The notes under the pieces were generated by a model. That model saw only the letters and a list, made by a program, of their open reading frames with translations, did no database searches and was not told the origin of the DNA. Positions 3,905 through 48,132 of a DNA stretch of 52,897 bases are shown here, one piece after another. The stretch's first letter is position 1; each line of letters begins with the position of its first letter. The position numbers and the translations under genes were made by a program. The stretch is from Methanothrix sp. (GTDB taxonomy: Archaea > Halobacteriota > Methanosarcinia > Methanotrichales > Methanotrichaceae): assembly GCF_026419855.1 (NCBI RefSeq), contig NZ_JAOAKP010000006.1, positions 1 to 52,897 of the forward strand, in the 5' to 3' direction.

Positions 3905-4655
3905 ATCCCGAAATGAAGCTCCTTATGCAGTATCTCAGATCCTGATGGTACCCGCCCTCGAGAACAGCAAATCTGCGTCCACCGCATCTATCCTCAGATG
4001 CGTCTCTTATCAGGGAACCGATCTTCATGTAGTCATCTATATCGAGTATGCCGCCCCAGTCCAGGCGGTACGTGTCAAATCCGGCTGATACGCATATGAT
4101 ATCATACTCGTGGGATTCGAGCGCCTTCTCCACCTGCTCGATGTATCCCCCGCTCTCGAGCTTTATGTAATCGAAGTTCGCGTCGATGGCGCCGATGTTG
4201 ACGACGCTGACATCCGGATCCCATCGAAATATGCTCACAGTGCCGTCGCCGAAGTGCAGGTCGATGTCCAGGATCAGGAGCCTCCTGACATGCTTCCTGA
4301 TCGCCTTCACAGCTATGGCGATGTTGTTGAAGAAGCACATACCCCATGAGTGATCAGCGGATGCATGATGCCCTGGCGGGCGGATAAGCCCGAAGGCCGG
4401 CTCCATCATGGAGATCCTAGCGGCTGCAACGGCGCCGCCCGCTGCAAGAGCCGCAGCCTCATAGAGCCCTCTCAGCCTAACACGCTCGATGTGACCTTCG
4501 GTATGGACCGCCGATATCTCCGCGTGGCTCGCCGGAGCCGGCTCGAAAAACTCGTAGCCGGAGAGCTCCTGAGCCGCAAGTCTGACCCTGTCGGGATGCT
4601 CAACAGGATTTGTGGGGTACCGCCCCTCAAAGCCCCTGCTGTATACGATGATCAT
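3897..4655 (-). CDS. Histone deacetylase superfamily protein
   Basis: The product carries the family signature: RPPGHHA at residues 92-98 (tandem histidines of the charge relay), DIDLHFGDG at 130-138 (zinc and potassium ligands), GFDTYRLDWGG and a final EGGYH. Members remove acetyl groups from lysines, polyamines or other amides. The open frame continues upstream to 4808, but the ATG at 4655 has a GAGGAG ribosome site and the conserved domain begins there, giving 252 residues, short for the family. It overlaps the small gene downstream and belongs to a unit running towards mptA. The substrate is unknown. Confidence 0.85.
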   Translation of the reverse strand: MIIVYSRGFEGRYPTNPVEHPDRVRLAAQELSGYEFFEPAPASHAEISAVHTEGHIERVRLRGLYEAAALAAGGAVAAARISMMEPAFGLIRPPGHHASADHSWGMCFFNNIAIAVKAIRKHVRRLLILDIDLHFGDGTVSIFRWDPDVSVVNIGAIDANFDYIKLESGGYIEQVEKALESHEYDIICVSAGFDTYRLDWGGILDIDDYMKIGSLIRDASEDRCGGRRFAVLEGGYHQDLRYCIRSFISGFE

Positions 4656-4798
4656 CTCTGAGCTCCTCAATCCAGCAGCCGCATAAGCGATATCAAAAGC
4701 ATGTGGAATTCGCGATGCCAATCTCTGCGAATGCCAACACTGAAAAATACTGCCACCGACCAGGATCTCAATCAGGCTGGAGGCAGCAGGAATCCGAC

Positions 4799-12421: not shown

Positions 12422-12428
12422 ATGCATT

Positions 12429-12547
12429 CGCTCTTATCCGTTTGATGACTTGCGTGGAGAGGCACTGTTTCCGCTATGTGCTCCTGGCGAATGAGTGCAT
12501 CCAGCAACCAGTACACTTGCCCCTGCGTTGCCGAACACACAAGAGCG
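12429..12547 (+). mobile_element. MITE-like element, copy 3, with 8-bp target duplication
   Basis: The element runs from CGCTCTT to AAGAGCG (7-bp terminal inverted repeats, 119 bp). It is flanked by perfect direct repeats GATGCATT at 12421-12428 and 12548-12555, showing insertion by a transposase that makes 8-base staggered cuts. It has no coding capacity. Confidence 0.92.
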
Positions 12548-12828
12548 GATGCATTTTCCTCCGAACCGAAATCTCCCAACCGGCATGGGCATTTTGCGGC
12601 GGGCATGCGCCAGATTGAGTCCAGATCCCTAAGATTCTCCATACAATTAAGTTAAAATAAGCGAATATACGACCATCTAGCGCCGGATCTCCGGCCTGTG
12701 GTGGGATCGGATGATATGATGCAAGGACCACAGCGGACGTGACATAAAATAAAAGGATGCTTCACGCGTTCGCGCCATGACCTTGCTGATCGATCCCAGC
12801 TCAGAATGGAAAGCGCCCACAGCGCACC

Positions 12829-29761: not shown

Positions 29762-30718
29762 ATGTTCATAGGCGTTGACCACGGGACGAGGGCGATAAGG
29801 TTTGCGAACCATCATGGTGATGGCATTGCAATACCAAGATCCGAGGCTGGATCACTCAGGCCGGAGGAGATACTGAATAGGATAAAGGATCATTTTCATG
29901 CGCGATCATTCGACCTGGTGGCGCTCTGCTACTCGATGGGCGATGGTATAACGCGCATAACAAGATTGCAGGATGCTGATAACAGGGGACTCGCAAGGCT
30001 CAGCGGTGCCGGAATCGAGATCGGTGGTGGGACCAGGGTCTACGAGGCCATGGCGATCTCCGGATGGCCGGTGGTCCTGCTCCCGGGCATACACAGAGGC
30101 TCCAGCATAGATCTCAGAATGAAGGTCTTTTCGCATGGAGCGAGCCCTGAGAAGGTCGGTTTATCGTACTATGTGGTGCGCAGAGGTGTGGAGAACGCTG
30201 TGATAGCTGATGCCAGCTCCAACACGGTCACGATCGGCATAAATGAGCGTAAGATCGTTGGCGCGATAGATGCGCCGATATTCGCTCCTGGCCTGCTTCA
30301 GGGGCCGCTGGATGTCGATGCGATAAGAGCTGTTGATGATGGAATGATGACAGCGAACGAGGCGTTCTCGCACGGTGGGATCCTAAGAAGGATGAATCTC
30401 CCAGATGAGCATGACGATCTCGCGCTGGAGACCCTGGCACTCTTCGCAGCGATGGAGATGAGCGCGATGTCCATTCTTCTAAAAGACCTCGGCGCTGAAT
30501 CTCCGGATATGTTTCTTGCGGGAGATCCAGCTCCATACATCGCGGAGCGTGTCTCTGAGCTTCTTGGCATCGATGTCATTCCTCTGCCCTCATTTGCTTC
30601 TGCCACAGGCTGTGCCTGGATCGCAGAGGATATATTCGCAGGGATGAGATCCATCATGGGGATAGATGTTGACGAACGGGTCTTCGATGAGGGTGGAGGA
30701 GTGGCTGGAGGTCCTTAA
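29762..30718 (+). CDS. Methanogenesis marker protein 12
   Basis: The 318-residue product matches the methanogenesis marker 12 family, which occurs almost only in methanogens and has an ASKHA (actin/sugar-kinase-like) nucleotide-binding appearance: FIGVDHGTRAIRFA at the N-terminus and a C-terminal DMFLAGDPAPYIAERV helix. The reaction is unknown; the phylogenetic pattern ties it to methanogenesis or its cofactors. GAGAAGGAGAACAC lies before the ATG. A small gene overlaps its end. Confidence 0.88.
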   Translation: MFIGVDHGTRAIRFANHHGDGIAIPRSEAGSLRPEEILNRIKDHFHARSFDLVALCYSMGDGITRITRLQDADNRGLARLSGAGIEIGGGTRVYEAMAISGWPVVLLPGIHRGSSIDLRMKVFSHGASPEKVGLSYYVVRRGVENAVIADASSNTVTIGINERKIVGAIDAPIFAPGLLQGPLDVDAIRAVDDGMMTANEAFSHGGILRRMNLPDEHDDLALETLALFAAMEMSAMSILLKDLGAESPDMFLAGDPAPYIAERVSELLGIDVIPLPSFASATGCAWIAEDIFAGMRSIMGIDVDERVFDEGGGVAGGP

Positions 30719-30936: not shown

Positions 30937-30954
30937 CGCGGGCCTCATCCCGCG
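30937..30954 (+). terminator. Terminator-like hairpin after the marker-12 unit
   Basis: CGCGGG-CCTCAT-CCCGCG is a perfect 6-bp GC stem starting 8 bases after the last stop. The following T-content (GATTTGGTT) is modest. Confidence 0.4.
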
Positions 30955-30971: not shown

Positions 30972-31079
30972 TTACCTGACGCCCGACCGGCTATCGGACC
31001 ACTTGTTTGATATCCACGGCAGCGCAACGACCAGGACTCCGAATATCACCACAACAAGCACATGATCCATGATGCTCAT
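30972..31079 (-). CDS. 35-residue membrane microprotein
   Basis: A short minus-strand frame starts at the ATG at 31079, five bases behind GGAGGTGA, one of the strongest ribosome sites in the window. It encodes 35 residues: MSIMDHV, a single hydrophobic segment (about residues 7-22, Leu/Val rich), then a polar basic tail (ISNKWSDSRSGVR). This architecture is typical of small subunits or regulators of membrane complexes. A BRE/TATA-like AAAAGGTTTAAGTT lies about 50 bases upstream. I do not recognise a family. Confidence 0.65.
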   Translation of the reverse strand: MSIMDHVLVVVIFGVLVVALPWISNKWSDSRSGVR

Positions 31080-31127
31080 CGATGTCACCTCCTGAGAGAC
31101 AGAGCTGTACACCCTCCGATACACTAG

Positions 31128-31141
31128 AACTTAAACCTTTT
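31128..31141 (-). promoter_or_regulatory. Candidate promoter of the 35-residue microprotein
   Basis: On the minus strand AAAAGGTTTAAGTT resembles a BRE followed by a weak TATA box. Transcription would start near 31105, leaving a leader of about 25 bases with the GGAGGTGA site. Confidence 0.4.
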
Positions 31142-31296
31142 GACATGATTGATAACTTCTTCAGAGATTGTTTTACACAAAAGTGGCAATATATCATCAT
31201 TAATAATGATTTTGATGACCATAATGCTGTTGAACAGCGCGCTGGCTCACATCATTTTGGAGGGATGTTCTGGGAGCGCAGCACGGGACCACGGGA

Positions 31297-31478
31297 GTGA
31301 CCGCCCTCCAGCCTGAAGACCGGAGTCGCTCTTATCGTTTAATGACTTGCTTGGAGAGGCACTGTTTCCTCTATGCTCTCCTGGCGAATGAATGAGTGCA
31401 CCCAGCAACCAGTATGCTTGACATCTAAGTTGCTGAACAAACAAGAGCGGACCGGAGTTTGCGCTCTGCTGCCTCTAT
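31297..31478 (+). repeat. Extragenic palindrome (REP-like), copy 5, split by a MITE-like element
   Basis: GTGACCGCCCTCCAGCCTGA and GACCGGAGT (31297-31326) are the left part and TTGCGCTCTGCTGC (from 31459) the right part of the same palindrome family. The two halves are separated by the element at 31327-31449 and the duplicated GACCGGAGT. Removing element and duplication restores a normal copy. Confidence 0.75.
31327..31449 (+). mobile_element. MITE-like element, copy 4, with 9-bp target duplication
   Basis: It runs from CGCTCTTATC to AAACAAGAGCG (123 bp) and is flanked by GACCGGAGT at 31318-31326 and again at 31450-31458. It sits inside REP-like copy 5, so it is younger than that palindrome. 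Confidence 0.92.
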
Positions 31479-39435: not shown

Positions 39436-39590
39436 GCCCGCCACTCTATCACATGCCAGACTTTTAATGCTTTCGATTGAGCACATCGGGTCGCTTAATA
39501 TGTTGATCCCTGCGCTAAATACAATTGCAGGAGGCCATGTTATTACAGCTGCAGTTCACTTGCGCACATTCTGAGTGCGATTTACGCAGC

Positions 39591-39713
39591 GCTCTTATCC
39601 ATTTGATGACTTGCTTTGAGAGGCACTGTTCCCGCTATGTGCTCCTGGCGATTGAATTAGTGCATCCAGCAACCAGTATGCGTGCCCTCTAAGTTGCTGA
39701 ACACACAAGAGCG
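39591..39713 (+). mobile_element. MITE-like element, copy 5, with 8-bp target duplication
   Basis: CGCTCTTATC to AAGAGCG (about 123 bp) is flanked by TTACGCAG on the left (to about 39590) and TTACGCAG at 39714-39721. The right duplication contains the stop codon of the minus-strand gene next to it, so insertion left the reading frame intact. Confidence 0.92.
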
Positions 39714-41650: not shown

Positions 41651-41774
41651 CGCTCTTGTGTGTTCAGCAACTTAGAGGGCAAGCATACTGTTTGCTGGAT
41701 GCACTCACTCATTCGCCAGGAGCACATAGCGGGAACAGTGCCTCTCAAAGCAAGTCATCAAATGGATAAGAGCG
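41651..41774 (-). mobile_element. MITE-like element, copy 6, with 8-bp target duplication
   Basis: The element (124 bp) is inserted in reverse orientation, 34 bases after the nitroreductase stop. GTCACTGT at 41643-41650 and 41775-41782 is the target duplication. It is nearly identical to copies 3-5. Confidence 0.92.
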
Positions 41775-42539: not shown

Positions 42540-42692
42540 GTGGCTGAGTACATGCGTGGTTTTGAGCAGAAGACCATCCCGCCCGTGGGCGAGGATTCCG
42601 GAAAGATGGCGTATCTTCCGCTGATAGCCATCCTGGGGTTTGGCGTTTTCGCCCTTATAGTCGCATATATGGTAAAGATGCTGGCCTCCTGA
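42540..42692 (+). CDS. 50-residue membrane microprotein
   Basis: A GTG start at 42540 stands 4 bases behind AGGAGGTGA, an almost ideal ribosome site. The product has a polar N-terminus (MAEYMRGFEQKTIPPVGED), one long hydrophobic segment (about residues 23-45) and a short basic end (MVKMLAS). I do not recognise a family. It could belong with carS upstream (53-base gap) or be independent. Confidence 0.7.
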   Translation: MAEYMRGFEQKTIPPVGEDSGKMAYLPLIAILGFGVFALIVAYMVKMLAS

Positions 42693-43191: not shown

Positions 43192-44097
43192 ATGGACGCA
43201 TTGAGCATGGGGCTCGTCGCTGCTATGGGGGCCCTTGCGACCGTTGCTGGAGCCAGCGAGGATATCGAGTCGGATATAGGCTCTCAGAGCAATCCAAACT
43301 CGCAGGTCCAGCTTGCTGCTCAGGTCGGAAACCCCCACAGGATATACAATAAGGCGATCTCAGGCGAGCCACCAGCGAACGCTCTCTGGGCTACAACCGC
43401 TGCTGTTGTGGCTTACACGCTGATAACAAAGTTCGCAATGCCTGCGCTCTTCGCAATAGCCATCGGCGCGTCGGTTGCTGCGCTCTTCAACGGAGTCTTC
43501 TCAACCAGCGCTTACTTTGGCAGGAGCGCAAGCCAGCGCAGGTTCAACCAGTGGATATATCTGGATATAGTGCGCTACACAACGACATCCATAATGGCAC
43601 ATGCATGGATAACAGCGTTCTGCATAACATGCATAGCATACATACAGACTGCGATTTTGACACCACACCACCCGTTCCCGATGCCTGTTATCGCTCTGAT
43701 CTGGGGATTGACCGTTGGTGCAATCGGCTCTTCTGTTGGTGATATTCATTATGGAGGCGAGCGCGAGTTCCAGTGGAGGCTCTTCGGTCAGGGTCTCAAC
43801 ACGATGCTATCAGGCCAGATTGTGAGGAAGGCCGAGGCTGGATTGAGGAACTCCATAGACAACGCATGGTTCTGCACGAAGCTTGGAGGGCCGCTCACGG
43901 GTCTTGGGTTTGGCTTAACGGTCTTCCTGGACAACTGGCGCACAACGGTCTTTGACCCGGTGACGCAGGCCGGTCTGGCCATTGGTATGGGTCTCTTCTT
44001 CGTGATAATTATGAACCTGTATAACTTCTACGTTGAGACCTCGATAAGAAAGAAGTACGGCCCGTATCCAGGGTACAAGGGGGATATCGCAGCATGA
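43192..44097 (+). CDS. mtrE: Tetrahydromethanopterin S-methyltransferase subunit E
   Basis: The 301-residue product is MtrE, an integral membrane subunit with about six helices that with MtrC and MtrD forms the sodium-translocating part of the complex. Typical are MDALSMGLVAAMGALATVAG, the loop ESDIGSQSNPNSQVQLAAQV and the long helices that follow. It starts the mtrEDCBAFGH operon behind AGGAGGAGG. mtrD overlaps by 4 bases. Confidence 0.97.
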   Translation: MDALSMGLVAAMGALATVAGASEDIESDIGSQSNPNSQVQLAAQVGNPHRIYNKAISGEPPANALWATTAAVVAYTLITKFAMPALFAIAIGASVAALFNGVFSTSAYFGRSASQRRFNQWIYLDIVRYTTTSIMAHAWITAFCITCIAYIQTAILTPHHPFPMPVIALIWGLTVGAIGSSVGDIHYGGEREFQWRLFGQGLNTMLSGQIVRKAEAGLRNSIDNAWFCTKLGGPLTGLGFGLTVFLDNWRTTVFDPVTQAGLAIGMGLFFVIIMNLYNFYVETSIRKKYGPYPGYKGDIAA

Positions 44098-44783
44098 ACT
44101 TTGATGCTTTAACCATTGTTTACATTCTGGAGATCGTAGTGGGTGGACTGATGGTAGGTATAGGCGTCCACTTCGTGCCGGTCGGCGGCGCGCCTGCTGC
44201 CATGGCACAGGCCACAGGAATCGGTACCGGCACAGTTCAGCTGGCCGCTGGATCCGGACTCACCGGACTGCTGGCAGCAGGTCTCATGATGTCGGTCACG
44301 GATAACATCTGGCCAATTCTGGCATCAGGAGCCGTCGGAGCAATGATAATGATGGATGCCACGATGCTGACCGGCGGCTGGATATATGCATACGCTGTGG
44401 GCGCCCCGTTCGCATCAGCCAAGGTCAACTATGATCCGATCACTGGATACTCACAGCCCCCGTATGTCGCCCCGGGCACAGTCGGGCAGGGTATACCCAC
44501 AGTCTGTTACGTAAGCGGGACGATCGGTGCTCTGATGGGCGGTATCGGCGGCGCAATGATCTACTACCCGCTGATGATGACAAACCATAACCCCTCCCTG
44601 AGCGCGCTCTTCGCGATCGGCATATTCCTGGTGAACGCTGTTCTTGCTTCCTGGAACATCCAGGGGACGATCGAGGGGTTCCACGATCCGAAGTTCAAGA
44701 GATGGCCGAAGGCGTTCAGGTCATGCCTGGTGGCCACCCTGATCCTGGCGCTTGTGGCCGTTACAATAACAGGAGGTGCATGA
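44094..44783 (+). CDS. mtrD: Tetrahydromethanopterin S-methyltransferase subunit D
   Basis: The 229-residue product is MtrD, a membrane subunit with about six helices and glycine-rich loops (VPVGGAPAAMAQATGIGTGT, 25-44). It belongs to the ion-translocating part of Mtr. It overlaps mtrE (ATGA); mtrC begins directly after it behind AGGAGGTG. Confidence 0.96.
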   Translation: MNFDALTIVYILEIVVGGLMVGIGVHFVPVGGAPAAMAQATGIGTGTVQLAAGSGLTGLLAAGLMMSVTDNIWPILASGAVGAMIMMDATMLTGGWIYAYAVGAPFASAKVNYDPITGYSQPPYVAPGTVGQGIPTVCYVSGTIGALMGGIGGAMIYYPLMMTNHNPSLSALFAIGIFLVNAVLASWNIQGTIEGFHDPKFKRWPKAFRSCLVATLILALVAVTITGGA

Positions 44784-44784
44784 G

Positions 44785-45612
44785 ATGACAGTAGGAGGGG
44801 GGGCAGGAGGAGCACCCTCTGCAATAGATCCCAAGAAGCTCAGGGTGTACGGGCTTGCAGGAGCTCTTGTGGGCATATACCTCGCAGCCATTCTCAACAG
44901 CGTTCTCGGAACGGACATATTCTCGATCCTGGCTGCAGCAGGTGCAGTCGCGGCTGCTGTCATGGGGGCGAATGCCGTAAGAAGGGTCTGCGGCTATGGT
45001 ATCGGTACCGGTGTCCCTTCGATAGGAATGCTTGCGCTGGGAATGGGCATAGTCGGTGCGTCGTTTGGTCTCTCGACTGCAGAGCAGCTGGGCATATCGA
45101 TGGCCGGTGTCATCATAGCGCTGGTCTATGCGATGGTCTTCGGCTACATCGTGGGCGCGATCGCAAACAAGGTCATGGGCTTCAACATACCGATCATGGA
45201 GGAGGGGCTCACCGATCTGTCAGGCGCAGGCGCGATGGCAATAATCGGATGGTCCTATGCGGTCTCCGGATCGCTGGCGTATGCAGATATGGTAACTAAG
45301 GTCTTCAACACCGGCTACCTGGCTATAATATTCATCTGCGGCGGCCTTGCGATTCTCCATCCGTTCAATGCGAACCTGGGGCCGGATGAGAAGCAGGACA
45401 GAACACTGGTGAATGGGTTGATGGTCGGCTCTCTGGCAACAGTTGCTGTCGGACTGTGTTCCCTGGCAACGCTCAGCACCACTGCAGCTCTCATAACCAT
45501 TGTGATTGGCGCTGCCGCGTGGTACTACTTCTACGTCTGGTACTACAGGCTGGTCAAGAGGGATGCTGCGGCTGTTGTTGGAACAGGTCTGCTGCCGCCA
45601 AGCGCGCTATGA
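44785..45612 (+). CDS. mtrC: Tetrahydromethanopterin S-methyltransferase subunit C
   Basis: The 275-residue product is MtrC, the third large membrane subunit (seven to eight helices). The ATG at 44785 was preferred over an upstream frame extension because AGGAGGTG (44771-44778) is properly spaced. The start MTVGGGAGGAPSAIDPKKLR matches the family's polar N-terminus. Confidence 0.96.
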   Translation: MTVGGGAGGAPSAIDPKKLRVYGLAGALVGIYLAAILNSVLGTDIFSILAAAGAVAAAVMGANAVRRVCGYGIGTGVPSIGMLALGMGIVGASFGLSTAEQLGISMAGVIIALVYAMVFGYIVGAIANKVMGFNIPIMEEGLTDLSGAGAMAIIGWSYAVSGSLAYADMVTKVFNTGYLAIIFICGGLAILHPFNANLGPDEKQDRTLVNGLMVGSLATVAVGLCSLATLSTTAALITIVIGAAAWYYFYVWYYRLVKRDAAAVVGTGLLPPSAL

Positions 45613-45624
45613 GGAGGCACAAAG

Positions 45625-45975
45625 ATGGGATTCGTCAGAATATCTCCAGAACTGGGGCTGCTCTTCGATCCACTTAAGGGAGTGGTCGCGGAGCAGAGGG
45701 AGGATGTGGTTCTCTACACATTCGATCCGGTGATGGACAGGATTGAGAGGCTTGATGCAATCGCAGATGACCTGATGAACCAACTGGTTCCGGATAACGA
45801 GCTGCTTGAGTCTTACAAGAACAGAGGAAAGACCTCCATCATAGGCGGCCTTTACACCAACATCTGGGTCGGCTTCATCATAGGTCTTGTGATCTCATTC
45901 GTCGTGCTGATCGGCATGGTCTTCAGCGATCCGGCGAAGCTTGAGATGCTCAGAAAGGCTATGGGAGGTGCGTGA
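45625..45975 (+). CDS. mtrB: Tetrahydromethanopterin S-methyltransferase subunit B
   Basis: The 116-residue product is MtrB: a soluble N-terminal part (VRISPELGLLFDPLKGVVAE) and a C-terminal transmembrane helix (WVGFIIGLVISFVVLIGMV, about 86-104). It is a small accessory subunit that packs with MtrA, MtrF and MtrG. GGAGGCAC lies before the ATG. Confidence 0.96.
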   Translation: MGFVRISPELGLLFDPLKGVVAEQREDVVLYTFDPVMDRIERLDAIADDLMNQLVPDNELLESYKNRGKTSIIGGLYTNIWVGFIIGLVISFVVLIGMVFSDPAKLEMLRKAMGGA

Positions 45976-45977
45976 TT

Positions 45978-46709
45978 ATGGTGCTCAAGAAGAAACCCGC
46001 TGAGCCCTGGCCTGTGATCACCGGCGAGTATGAGGTCGGCAACCCGGAGAGCCCTGTGGCGGTTGTGACCTGCGGTTCTCACCTCAAGAACTCGGAGCTG
46101 ATAGCCGCTGGTGCTGCTCTGGCCGGGCCGTGCAAGACCGAGAATATAGGCATAGAGAAGATGGTCGCCAATGTGATCTCCAACCCGAACATCAGGTATC
46201 TGCTGATCACAGGTATGGAGGTCAAGGGGCACATCACAGGGCAGGCGATAGAGGCATTCACTGCCAATGGAATAGACAAGGAGGGCAGGATCATCGGGGC
46301 GAAGGGTGCGATCCCGTTCATCCAGAACCTGACGCCTGAGGCGATAGAGCGGTGGAGGCAGCAGATCACCACGATCAACATGATCGACACAGAGGATATG
46401 GGTGCCATCACCGCGAAGATAAAGGAGCTCGTCGCCAAGGATCCAGGTGCGCTAGATGTCGAGCCGATGATCGTCGAGATCAAGGAGGCTGGCGCCGAGG
46501 AGGGCGAGGGCGGTCTCAGGCCGATGGCCGCGGAGATAGTGGAGGTTCGTTCCAGGATACGGGCCATGGATATGGCCGTGACGAACAACGGCCTGCTCAA
46601 CAAATTCCAGGCTGGAGTTTACGCGGGCAAGATTGAGGGAATCGCGCTTGGAATGACCCTGACCCTGGCCATATTCGGGCTTATACTCAAGATGGTAGGG
46701 GGGAGCTGA
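45978..46709 (+). CDS. mtrA: Tetrahydromethanopterin S-methyltransferase subunit A (corrinoid)
   Basis: The 243-residue product is MtrA, which holds the 5-hydroxybenzimidazolylcobamide that carries the methyl group. The axial ligand corresponds to H85 in ITGMEVKGHITGQA. A C-terminal transmembrane helix (GIALGMTLTLAIFGLILKMV) anchors the subunit. The ATG at 45978 is 7 bases behind GGAGGTG; a GTG at 45972 would be too close. Confidence 0.97.
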   Translation: MVLKKKPAEPWPVITGEYEVGNPESPVAVVTCGSHLKNSELIAAGAALAGPCKTENIGIEKMVANVISNPNIRYLLITGMEVKGHITGQAIEAFTANGIDKEGRIIGAKGAIPFIQNLTPEAIERWRQQITTINMIDTEDMGAITAKIKELVAKDPGALDVEPMIVEIKEAGAEEGEGGLRPMAAEIVEVRSRIRAMDMAVTNNGLLNKFQAGVYAGKIEGIALGMTLTLAIFGLILKMVGGS

Positions 46710-46710
46710 G

Positions 46711-46938
46711 ATGGCAGGTGATGAGATAGTTTACGGGCAGGGAACTCCGGCTGTTATAGAGCCCCCAATGCCCCTCTTCGATCAGATCGTGGACGACATC
46801 AAGTACAAGGCGCAGCTCCTGGCAAGGGAGACGAAGCTGAGCTCTGGCGTCATTGCGGCAACCCCGCAGGGGTTCGCGATCGGCTTCTTCCTCGCCGTGG
46901 CCATGATGCTGGGACCTTTTCTGCTGATGGGGGTGTGA
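46711..46938 (+). CDS. mtrF: Tetrahydromethanopterin S-methyltransferase subunit F
   Basis: The 75-residue product is MtrF. A short cytoplasmic part (DQIVDDIKYKAQLLARETKL) precedes one C-terminal transmembrane helix (FAIGFFLAVAMMLGPFLLMG). It resembles the C-terminal membrane part of MtrA, with which it shares ancestry. AGGGGGGAG lies before the ATG. Confidence 0.95.
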   Translation: MAGDEIVYGQGTPAVIEPPMPLFDQIVDDIKYKAQLLARETKLSSGVIAATPQGFAIGFFLAVAMMLGPFLLMGV

Positions 46939-46941
46939 GCA

Positions 46942-47196
46942 TTGGCAGATGAGGCGAAGGATACAAAGCCGGTCGTCCCTGTTGCGGTGGTCGATCACGA
47001 CCAGTACAGGGAGATAATGGCGCGTCTCGATAAGATCGAGGAGAAGATCGAGTTCTACTCGGCTGAGAAGTTCCTGAGAGCCGGAAAGTCCGTGGGCAGA
47101 GATCTGGGTGTCGCCTACGGTGTCTGTGCTGGACTGATAATAATATTGGCGTACATACTGTTCATGTATGCCGGCAACTGGGTGAAGGTGATTTGA
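46942..47196 (+). CDS. mtrG: Tetrahydromethanopterin S-methyltransferase subunit G
   Basis: The 84-residue product is MtrG: residues about 15-40 form a coiled-coil-like helix (REIMARLDKIEEKIEFYSAE) and a transmembrane helix follows (GVCAGLIIILAYILFMYAGN). The start is a TTG behind GGGGGTGTG. It ends exactly where mtrH begins. Confidence 0.95.
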   Translation: MADEAKDTKPVVPVAVVDHDQYREIMARLDKIEEKIEFYSAEKFLRAGKSVGRDLGVAYGVCAGLIIILAYILFMYAGNWVKVI

Positions 47197-48132
47197 ATGT
47201 TCAGGTTCGATAGAAAGCAGGAGGTCTTCGACTTCGGCAAGTTCAAGATCGGGGGTCAGCCTGGCGAGTACCCGACTTGCTGCATCGGCACTATGTTCTA
47301 TGCCAGGCACAAGATAGTATCCGATCCGGAGCACGGGGTGTTCGATAAGAACGCAGCTGAGAAGCTCTGGAACCAGCAGGTTGAGATGAGCGAGATCACA
47401 GGGAACACCTGCATGAACCAGATTGTGGCAGAGACGAACGAGGCGATGCAGAAGGAGATCGACTGGTTTGTGGAGATCTCAGACTACCCATTCCTCATCG
47501 ATTCCTCTGCTCCAGAGGTGCGCGCCTTCGGTGTGAAGTACGCAACCGAGATCGGGGTCGCGGACAGGGCAGTGCACAACTCCATCAACGCCTCGATAAC
47601 AGATGAGGAGCTGCAGGCGCTGAAGGAGAGCGATCTGGATGCCGCAATAGTTCTGGCGTTCAACGCGATGGAGAAGGGCACGAAGGGCAAGATGGACATA
47701 CTCACTAAGGCTGCAGGCGGCGCAAAGAAGGGGATGCTCGAGTATGCGAAGGACTGCGGCATAACGAGGATTCTAATAGACACAGCGGCTATGCCGCTGG
47801 GCGCTGGCTCCGGAGCCACATACAGGGCGTGCATCGCTGTCAAGGCGATGCTTGGCCTGCCGGTCGGAGGCGGCTTCCACAACGCTGCATCCGCATGGGA
47901 TTGGATGAAGAAGTGGAAGAAGACGCACAAGGAGGCGTTCGCCCCTGTGGATATCGGCTCTAACCTCGTCGCGGGAATCGTGGGTGCTGACTTCTACCTC
48001 TACGGCCCGATCGAGAACGCACCCATGGTGTTCCCGGCTGCGGCGATGGTCGACATCATGAAGGCTGAGTCGATACAGGAGCTCGGCCTCGAGGTGCTGG
48101 ATCCGAACCACCCGATAAAGAAGACCCTGTAG
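47197..48132 (+). CDS. mtrH: Tetrahydromethanopterin S-methyltransferase subunit H
   Basis: The 311-residue product is MtrH, the peripheral TIM-barrel that moves the methyl group between methyl-tetrahydrosarcinapterin/methanopterin and the MtrA cobamide. It opens MFRFDRKQEVFDFGKFKIGG and contains GNTCMNQIVAETNEAMQKEI (66-85), EISDYPFLIDSSAPEVR and GLPVGGGFHNAASAWDWMKK. It ends the operon and is followed by a terminator hairpin. Confidence 0.97.
   Translation: MFRFDRKQEVFDFGKFKIGGQPGEYPTCCIGTMFYARHKIVSDPEHGVFDKNAAEKLWNQQVEMSEITGNTCMNQIVAETNEAMQKEIDWFVEISDYPFLIDSSAPEVRAFGVKYATEIGVADRAVHNSINASITDEELQALKESDLDAAIVLAFNAMEKGTKGKMDILTKAAGGAKKGMLEYAKDCGITRILIDTAAMPLGAGSGATYRACIAVKAMLGLPVGGGFHNAASAWDWMKKWKKTHKEAFAPVDIGSNLVAGIVGADFYLYGPIENAPMVFPAAAMVDIMKAESIQELGLEVLDPNHPIKKTL

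Follow-up and report, generated by a model that had tools for sequence, protein, structure and literature searches.

Within the window, by which we mean the whole stretch of 52,897 nucleotides of Methanothrix DNA analysed here, a frame of 35 codons on the minus strand (30972..31079) runs from an ATG at 31077-31079 to a TAA stop whose end is at 30972. Its translation, MSIMDHVLVVVIFGVLVVALPWISNKWSDSRSGVR, has homologues in related genomes and belongs to the copies that we call type A. The ribosome-binding site GGAGGTGA (31085..31092, minus strand) stands five nucleotides before the ATG, and GGAGGT is present in 41 of the 43 distinct copies of the family, those of loci L036 and L038 being the two without it. 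The initial annotation, made from the DNA letters, had rated this ribosome site as excellent.

A short gene and its control elements

The promoter that the same annotation had considered plausible corresponds to a TATA-like element, GGTTTAAGTT (31128..31137, minus strand), recognised by eye 49-58 bases upstream of the ATG. It is unchanged in all six genomes of the genus, and GTTTAT is seen by eye at roughly the same position in many type A copies from other genera. Further upstream, an AT-rich palindrome with the core ATCATTATTAATGAT (31193..31210, minus strand) is mostly conserved within the genus and could be a regulator site or a distal promoter. On the other side of the frame, a GC hairpin (30937..30954, minus strand) starts 17 nt past the stop codon and probably forms the 3' end of the transcript. 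Within the first 75 nt past the stop, 26 of the 33 distinct type A copies and two of the ten type B copies have a hairpin of -10 kcal/mol or lower.

When the six genomes of the genus are aligned and inspected by eye, a conserved block extends from about 31272 through the palindrome, the promoter-like element, the ribosome site and the frame to the hairpin, and the sequence upstream of about 31272 aligns poorly. Because this block holds the promoter-like element, the ribosome site, the frame and the hairpin, the gene can be read from its sequence as a one-gene, separately transcribed unit. An upstream in-frame GTG start, which would give 50 residues, was rejected because outside the genus the sequence is conserved from the ATG, or close to it, onwards. 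When the window was scanned for hydrophobic frames of 25-60 residues preceded by a Shine-Dalgarno (SD) sequence, two came up, the small gene and a frame at 42540, so the small gene exceeds chance expectation. An Rfam scan of the region gave one chance match and nothing else.

Between gyrA and the promoter of the small gene, at 31326-31452, sits a MITE-like element of about 124 bp, with the ends CGCTCTTAT...AAGAGCG and 8-base target duplications visible by eye. Other copies lie in the window at 8-119, 12428-12549, 39590-39713 and 41651-41774, and at least 43 matches, itself included, were counted in the 1.9 Mb genome with 40 of 131 first-look candidates scored. The five other genomes of the genus show no such element at the corresponding position.

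A conserved family in one clade of Methanotrichaceae

AlphaFold2 models the protein as one helix spanning residues 3-32 with a mean pLDDT of 91, in agreement with the 35-residue single-helix membrane protein originally proposed. The basic tail of that proposal is likewise recovered in the C-terminal NKWSDSRSGVR, with three basic residues and one acidic, and the 35 residues include no cysteine. Across 30 sequences G14, L20, P21, N25 and R35 are invariant and Q6, A9, F13, D29 and R31 reach at least 90%, the protein of the window having H6 and V9. Conservation of the helix is one-sided, on a face made of positions 6, 9/10, 13, 14, 17 and 20/21 (permutation p 0.003-0.018 over four choices of residue range, modest values from related sequences). 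The selection check on orthologues that the initial annotation had proposed gave a pooled pN/pS of 0.18 for ten type A sequences of genus g2, and within the window's genus any two sequences are separated by 2-7 synonymous and 0-1 replacement changes. Constraint is strong in both tail and helix and, as judged from these substitution patterns, the small frame is under selection as a protein.

The family Methanotrichaceae, or Methanothrix in the wide sense, was covered by 50 genomes, in genera labelled g1-g11. A first search with the peptide in 60 relatives (E up to 10) matched 27 genomes, among them each of the other five from the window's genus, at 97-100% identity; the matches in three of the 27 (G013, G055 and G058) were weak and due to chance. 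With a profile of 30 sequences, full-length or near full-length matches with E below 1e-15 were obtained in 34 of the 50 Methanotrichaceae genomes, and these same 34 account for all matches among the 237 genomes of the class at E <= 0.001. The homologue search suggested at the outset thus bears the gene out, as it does the remark that the frame is too short for usual gene calling. Absence of a conserved start, stop or ribosome site in related genomes had been named as grounds against the gene; start, length and stop are largely kept, together with the GGAGGT.

Carriers make up 34 of the 37 genomes of g1, g2, g3, g4, g7, g8 and g11 and all 23 genomes of this clade with at least 90% completeness and at most 5% contamination, and the three clade genomes with no match are 58-77% complete. 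At E <= 0.001 the profile matched none of the 13 genomes of g5, g6, g9 and g10 and none of the 187 genomes of the class outside Methanotrichaceae, a class-wide absence seen with a loose first look that a strongly diverged relative could escape. A search over 392 genomes of the phylum returned 11 strong matches, all to family members, and otherwise, up to E 0.01, six partial ones (E 0.0026-0.0097). The 34 carriers hold 54 matches, one to three each.

The distribution was also followed on a tree of MtrH with 33 rows, comprising 32 loci and the window and leaving out L089, L091, L092, L095, L096 and L097, mostly partial or interrupted matches. All rows with a copy of the small gene fall in one clade of 22 rows (support 100/99), in four of which (L069, L071, L072 and L074) the sequence past mtrH is too short to judge. 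In L080, just outside this clade, the 8 kb downstream of mtrH contain no copy, and none occurs in the 2.3-8 kb available there in L081-L088. The mtr neighbourhoods of the latter, outside the carrier clade, show no comparable small SD-preceded helix frame, and some of their short frames resemble, by eye, pieces of Mtr subunits. We infer that the small gene became fixed in the ancestor of one Methanotrichaceae clade.

Scans against Pfam and NCBIfam gave no match of substance for the family, PDB sequences none up to E 10, and among the publications listed as matches no description of it was found in the titles and the beginnings of the abstracts. We conclude, on comparative grounds, that an overlooked gene of Methanothrix, strongly conserved in one branch of the group, is real and probably important, and that it founds a new family of an already known general kind.

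A small, one-helix protein with a basic tail, present in several copies in many genomes and equipped with its own promoter-like element, a 3' hairpin and a regulator-like palindrome, also fits a membrane peptide that is toxic or induced by stress and reduces membrane energisation when produced, comparable to the type I toxins Hok, TisB and DinQ or to YohP. Type I toxins are patchily present and often carried on mobile elements. The small gene is instead kept in 23 of 23 good clade genomes, one type A DNA pattern was not matched in viral contigs, tail and helix are both strongly constrained, and the ribosome-binding site is a strong one, which makes this explanation quite improbable.

Gene order and isoforms

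The neighbour of the small gene, at 29762-30718, is the convergent marker 12 gene, as first annotated: it matches TIGR03281 with 288 bits against a cut-off of 181, and a Pfam scan of it gave nothing. The two genes do not form an operon, since they converge and the small gene carries a promoter-like element and a hairpin of its own. In most loci of other genera, mtr is followed on the same strand by a gene for a CxxCxxCC protein and then by type A, which faces marker 12 and cofD (gene names by homology, mtrF and mtrG by position). Type A usually lies 0.8-4.05 kb past the mtrH of mtrEDCBAFGH: 19 of the 21 named clade loci with at least 3 kb after mtrH show it at this distance on the same strand. 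The two exceptions, L060 and L061, are from the window's genus and have no copy within 8 kb of mtrH. Of 23 type A loci of 7-14.5 kb (L026, L028-L032, L041-L052 and L055-L059), 19 have marker 12 in convergent orientation at no more than about 3 kb; it is farther away in L031 and L032 and was not found in L048 and L056.

In the window, mtrE-mtrH occupy 43192-48132, mtrE being about 12 kb from the small gene, and in this genus gyrBA takes the place of mtr upstream of the small gene. In L042 gyrBA was not found and mtr is also not upstream, while the small gene and marker 12 are intact and cofD is present. As the gene orders suggest, mtr moved away in the window's genus and the small gene stayed beside marker 12, the pair being in this comparison a remnant of the mtr-gene-marker 12 order of other genera. 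The gene persists when its upstream neighbour or marker 12 changes and is therefore an independent gene.

Between marker 12 and the small gene, the plus strand holds a frame of 79-87 residues (30690, or 30666, to 30929) that carries CTNTKCPHYGKRC near its end and has no NCBIfam match. It looks like another real small gene, because a similar stretch occurs in 20 of the 21 loci showing marker 12 among 38 compared.

A nucleotide tree of the 43 distinct copies (no support values shown) separates ten copies of type B, from g1, g2, g3, g4 and g7, from the other 33, of type A. A later-arising group with LPWGLNKWSD, termed A2, is nested inside type A, and L030 (g4) lies near the split between A and B. 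Type B follows thrS in L024 and L033-L038. Of the A2 copies, those of L025 and L053 come after mch and those of L027 and L054 do not. Proximity to mtr and mch is no more than suggestive. The promoters, read by eye, are AAAGTTTATC or GGTTTAAG for type A, GCCGCCGCATTTAT-like for A2 and CCGTAACNATTATTAATTAT-like for type B, the last not being visible in L036. The hairpin TCCTGG...CCAGGA occurs 12 times in the 309,518 bases of 29 loci, in nine cases right behind a copy of type A or A2. A search of four genomes for a regulon of the type B promoter motif gave 20 sites with up to two mismatches, compared with 15 when the motif was reversed as a control; two sites were exact, both at type B copies, and on these counts we see no regulon for this motif.

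Several observations concern type B loci. In G011 a second site of the motif near type B leads to another small-helix frame. In L024 the type B copy has on its 3' side a 58-residue frame with one hydrophobic stretch (4483-4659, minus strand), which stands behind a sequence resembling the type B promoter motif. In the genome of the window (G000) a type B copy was not found; in L142, positions 1-2600 of its contig C11, similarity to the type B locus ends about 535 bases from the contig end, at a copy of the MITE-like repeat.

A proposed membrane subunit and its candidate partners

The reading that we favour, with a probability of roughly 55%, is that of a separately transcribed, clade-defining accessory or regulatory subunit that packs one face of its helix on a larger membrane protein. 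An accessory or regulatory role is suggested by the size, the single helix, the conserved face and tail, and the presence in every good clade genome. A short gene with its own promoter-like element, a near-perfect ribosome site and a 3' hairpin would give rise to a single-pass membrane protein of 35 residues which, by the positive-inside rule, would have its N terminus outside and its basic tail inside. The conserved face of the helix, Q6 (H in the window)-A9 (V in the window)/V10-F13-G14-V17-L20/P21, would lie packed on an integral membrane protein of larger size, on whose cytosolic side the tail, N-[KR]-[WF]-[SA]-D-S-R-x-x-x-R, would dock; both contacts are suggested by conservation. The subunit would be non-catalytic. 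Once fixed in the clade ancestor, the gene would have been duplicated into isoforms A and B and later A2, which stand under different promoters, so that the subunit may be swappable with conditions. CydX, KdpF and AcrZ are bacterial proteins of about 30-50 residues with one helix, accessory to a large membrane protein; the Methanothrix protein is like them in size and in its one helix, and the Pfam and NCBIfam scans list no relation to them.

A single conserved face could equally serve self-association, and two or three isoforms are found in many genomes, as might be expected of a self-assembling membrane peptide that acts as a homo-oligomer on lipids or the cell envelope with no other protein partner. 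The near-invariant tail suggests a protein surface instead, and we regard this option as distinctly unlikely.

If the protein is a subunit as we favour, its partner could belong to several systems. A membrane pyrophosphatase (H+-pyrophosphatase) was excluded, as none of the 50 genomes has one. The names offered by weak matches (MetS, ComI, CcoM, holin and DUF6693) were not adopted. Weak similarity along nearly the whole peptide does exist to PF16951 (MaAIMP_sms), the family of MetS, which is a small transporter subunit with a single helix. Seven of 30 members match it, at best with E 0.021 and 15.0 bits, over residues 3-34 in the four matches shown. These scores are far below the cut-off of 26.2 bits, the window's protein has no match, and none of the 50 genomes has a PF16951 protein above the cut-off. 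That the protein serves a sodium-coupled transporter as a small subunit, as MetS does for NSS transporters and small partner proteins do for SSS symporters, is also suggested by an SSF gene (PF00474) lying on the same strand 0.3-0.8 kb past the small gene in G021, G025, G066 and G067, and by one downstream in L032 (G023). However, this pairing is seen in g2 genomes only, in L032 and L056 a hairpin and a short frame with cysteine lie between the two genes, and SSF proteins occur in 50 of 50 genomes, so their presence cannot discriminate. For NSS (PF00209), 13 of the 50 genomes have a match, seven of them being genomes with no small protein, and 28 of the 34 carriers have none. The MetS reading fails because the window's genome shows no NSS transporter, and a transporter subunit in general appears unlikely. 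The intervening frame of L032 (5319-5471), with a counterpart in a like place in L056, encodes 50 residues and is zinc-ribbon-like.

Acetate, on which Methanothrix lives, yields little energy. A protein retained under this regime in every searched good-quality genome of the main clade is therefore likely to touch energy conservation or transport. For the subunit that we favour, the sodium-pumping methyltransferase Mtr is the leading candidate partner, at odds well below even, because of the gene position and of two unrelated small Mtr-binding proteins in Methanosarcina. The initial annotation had supposed a small subunit of a membrane complex; the conserved helix face, the single predicted helix and the usual place after mtr speak for such a subunit, and the identity of the complex stays at the level of a candidate.

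Several findings weigh against the link to Mtr. Shared ancestry alone can conserve gene order with mtr inside one family, and the gene for the CxxCxxCC protein separates mtrH from the small gene. The latter is not part of the mtr operon: it has a separate promoter-like element and hairpin and mostly lies 0.8-4.05 kb beyond mtrH. Type B follows thrS, which has no tie to energy metabolism, the A2 copies of L027 and L054 are near neither mtr nor mch, and Mtr is also found in genomes that have no small protein (L080-L088).

The two Methanosarcina proteins differ from that of Methanothrix. As described, MtrI of Methanosarcina mazei has 68 residues, four cysteines in an N-terminal zinc ribbon with a cysteine ligand to cobalt, and four helices on top of MtrCDE, and is reported only from Methanocomedenaceae, Methanoperedenaceae and Methanosarcinaceae (PMC12774963). 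It is similar as an unannotated small protein of Methanosarcinales, tied to Mtr and encoded outside the mtr operon; its identity with the Methanothrix protein was rejected, as the latter has 35 residues, no cysteine and hence no zinc ribbon, one membrane helix and another distribution than the one published there (PMC12774963). MtrR of M. mazei is reported to be a hydrophilic protein of 49 residues with no transmembrane helix, restricted to the genus Methanosarcina (PMC13370731). Both would be lineage-restricted small proteins acting on Mtr, an action described for MtrR and a candidate one here; the hydrophobic helix 3-32 and the distribution set the Methanothrix protein apart from MtrR (PMC13370731). 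A further small archaeal protein, sP36 of M. mazei, regulates the membrane transporter AmtB1 and differs by its 61 residues and its movement between cytoplasm and membrane (PMC10714827).

A bolder version, which we consider doubtful, would see in the small protein a membrane-embedded, clade-defining ninth subunit or modulator of the Methanothrix Mtr, a third unrelated small-protein tuner and the only membrane-spanning one of the three, with the isoforms A, B and A2 re-tuning the pump. If true, it would add a third small-protein solution to the tuning of the sodium-pumping methyltransferase after MtrI and MtrR of Methanosarcina. The family itself suggests that Methanosarcina and Methanothrix may have entirely different small-protein partners.

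The second frame of the window scan lies upstream of mtrE, on the plus strand at 42540-42692. With no match at E 1e-4 in the other loci fetched, this SD-preceded frame of 50 residues, with a GTG start and one hydrophobic stretch, is 90-92% identical in two loci of the genus.
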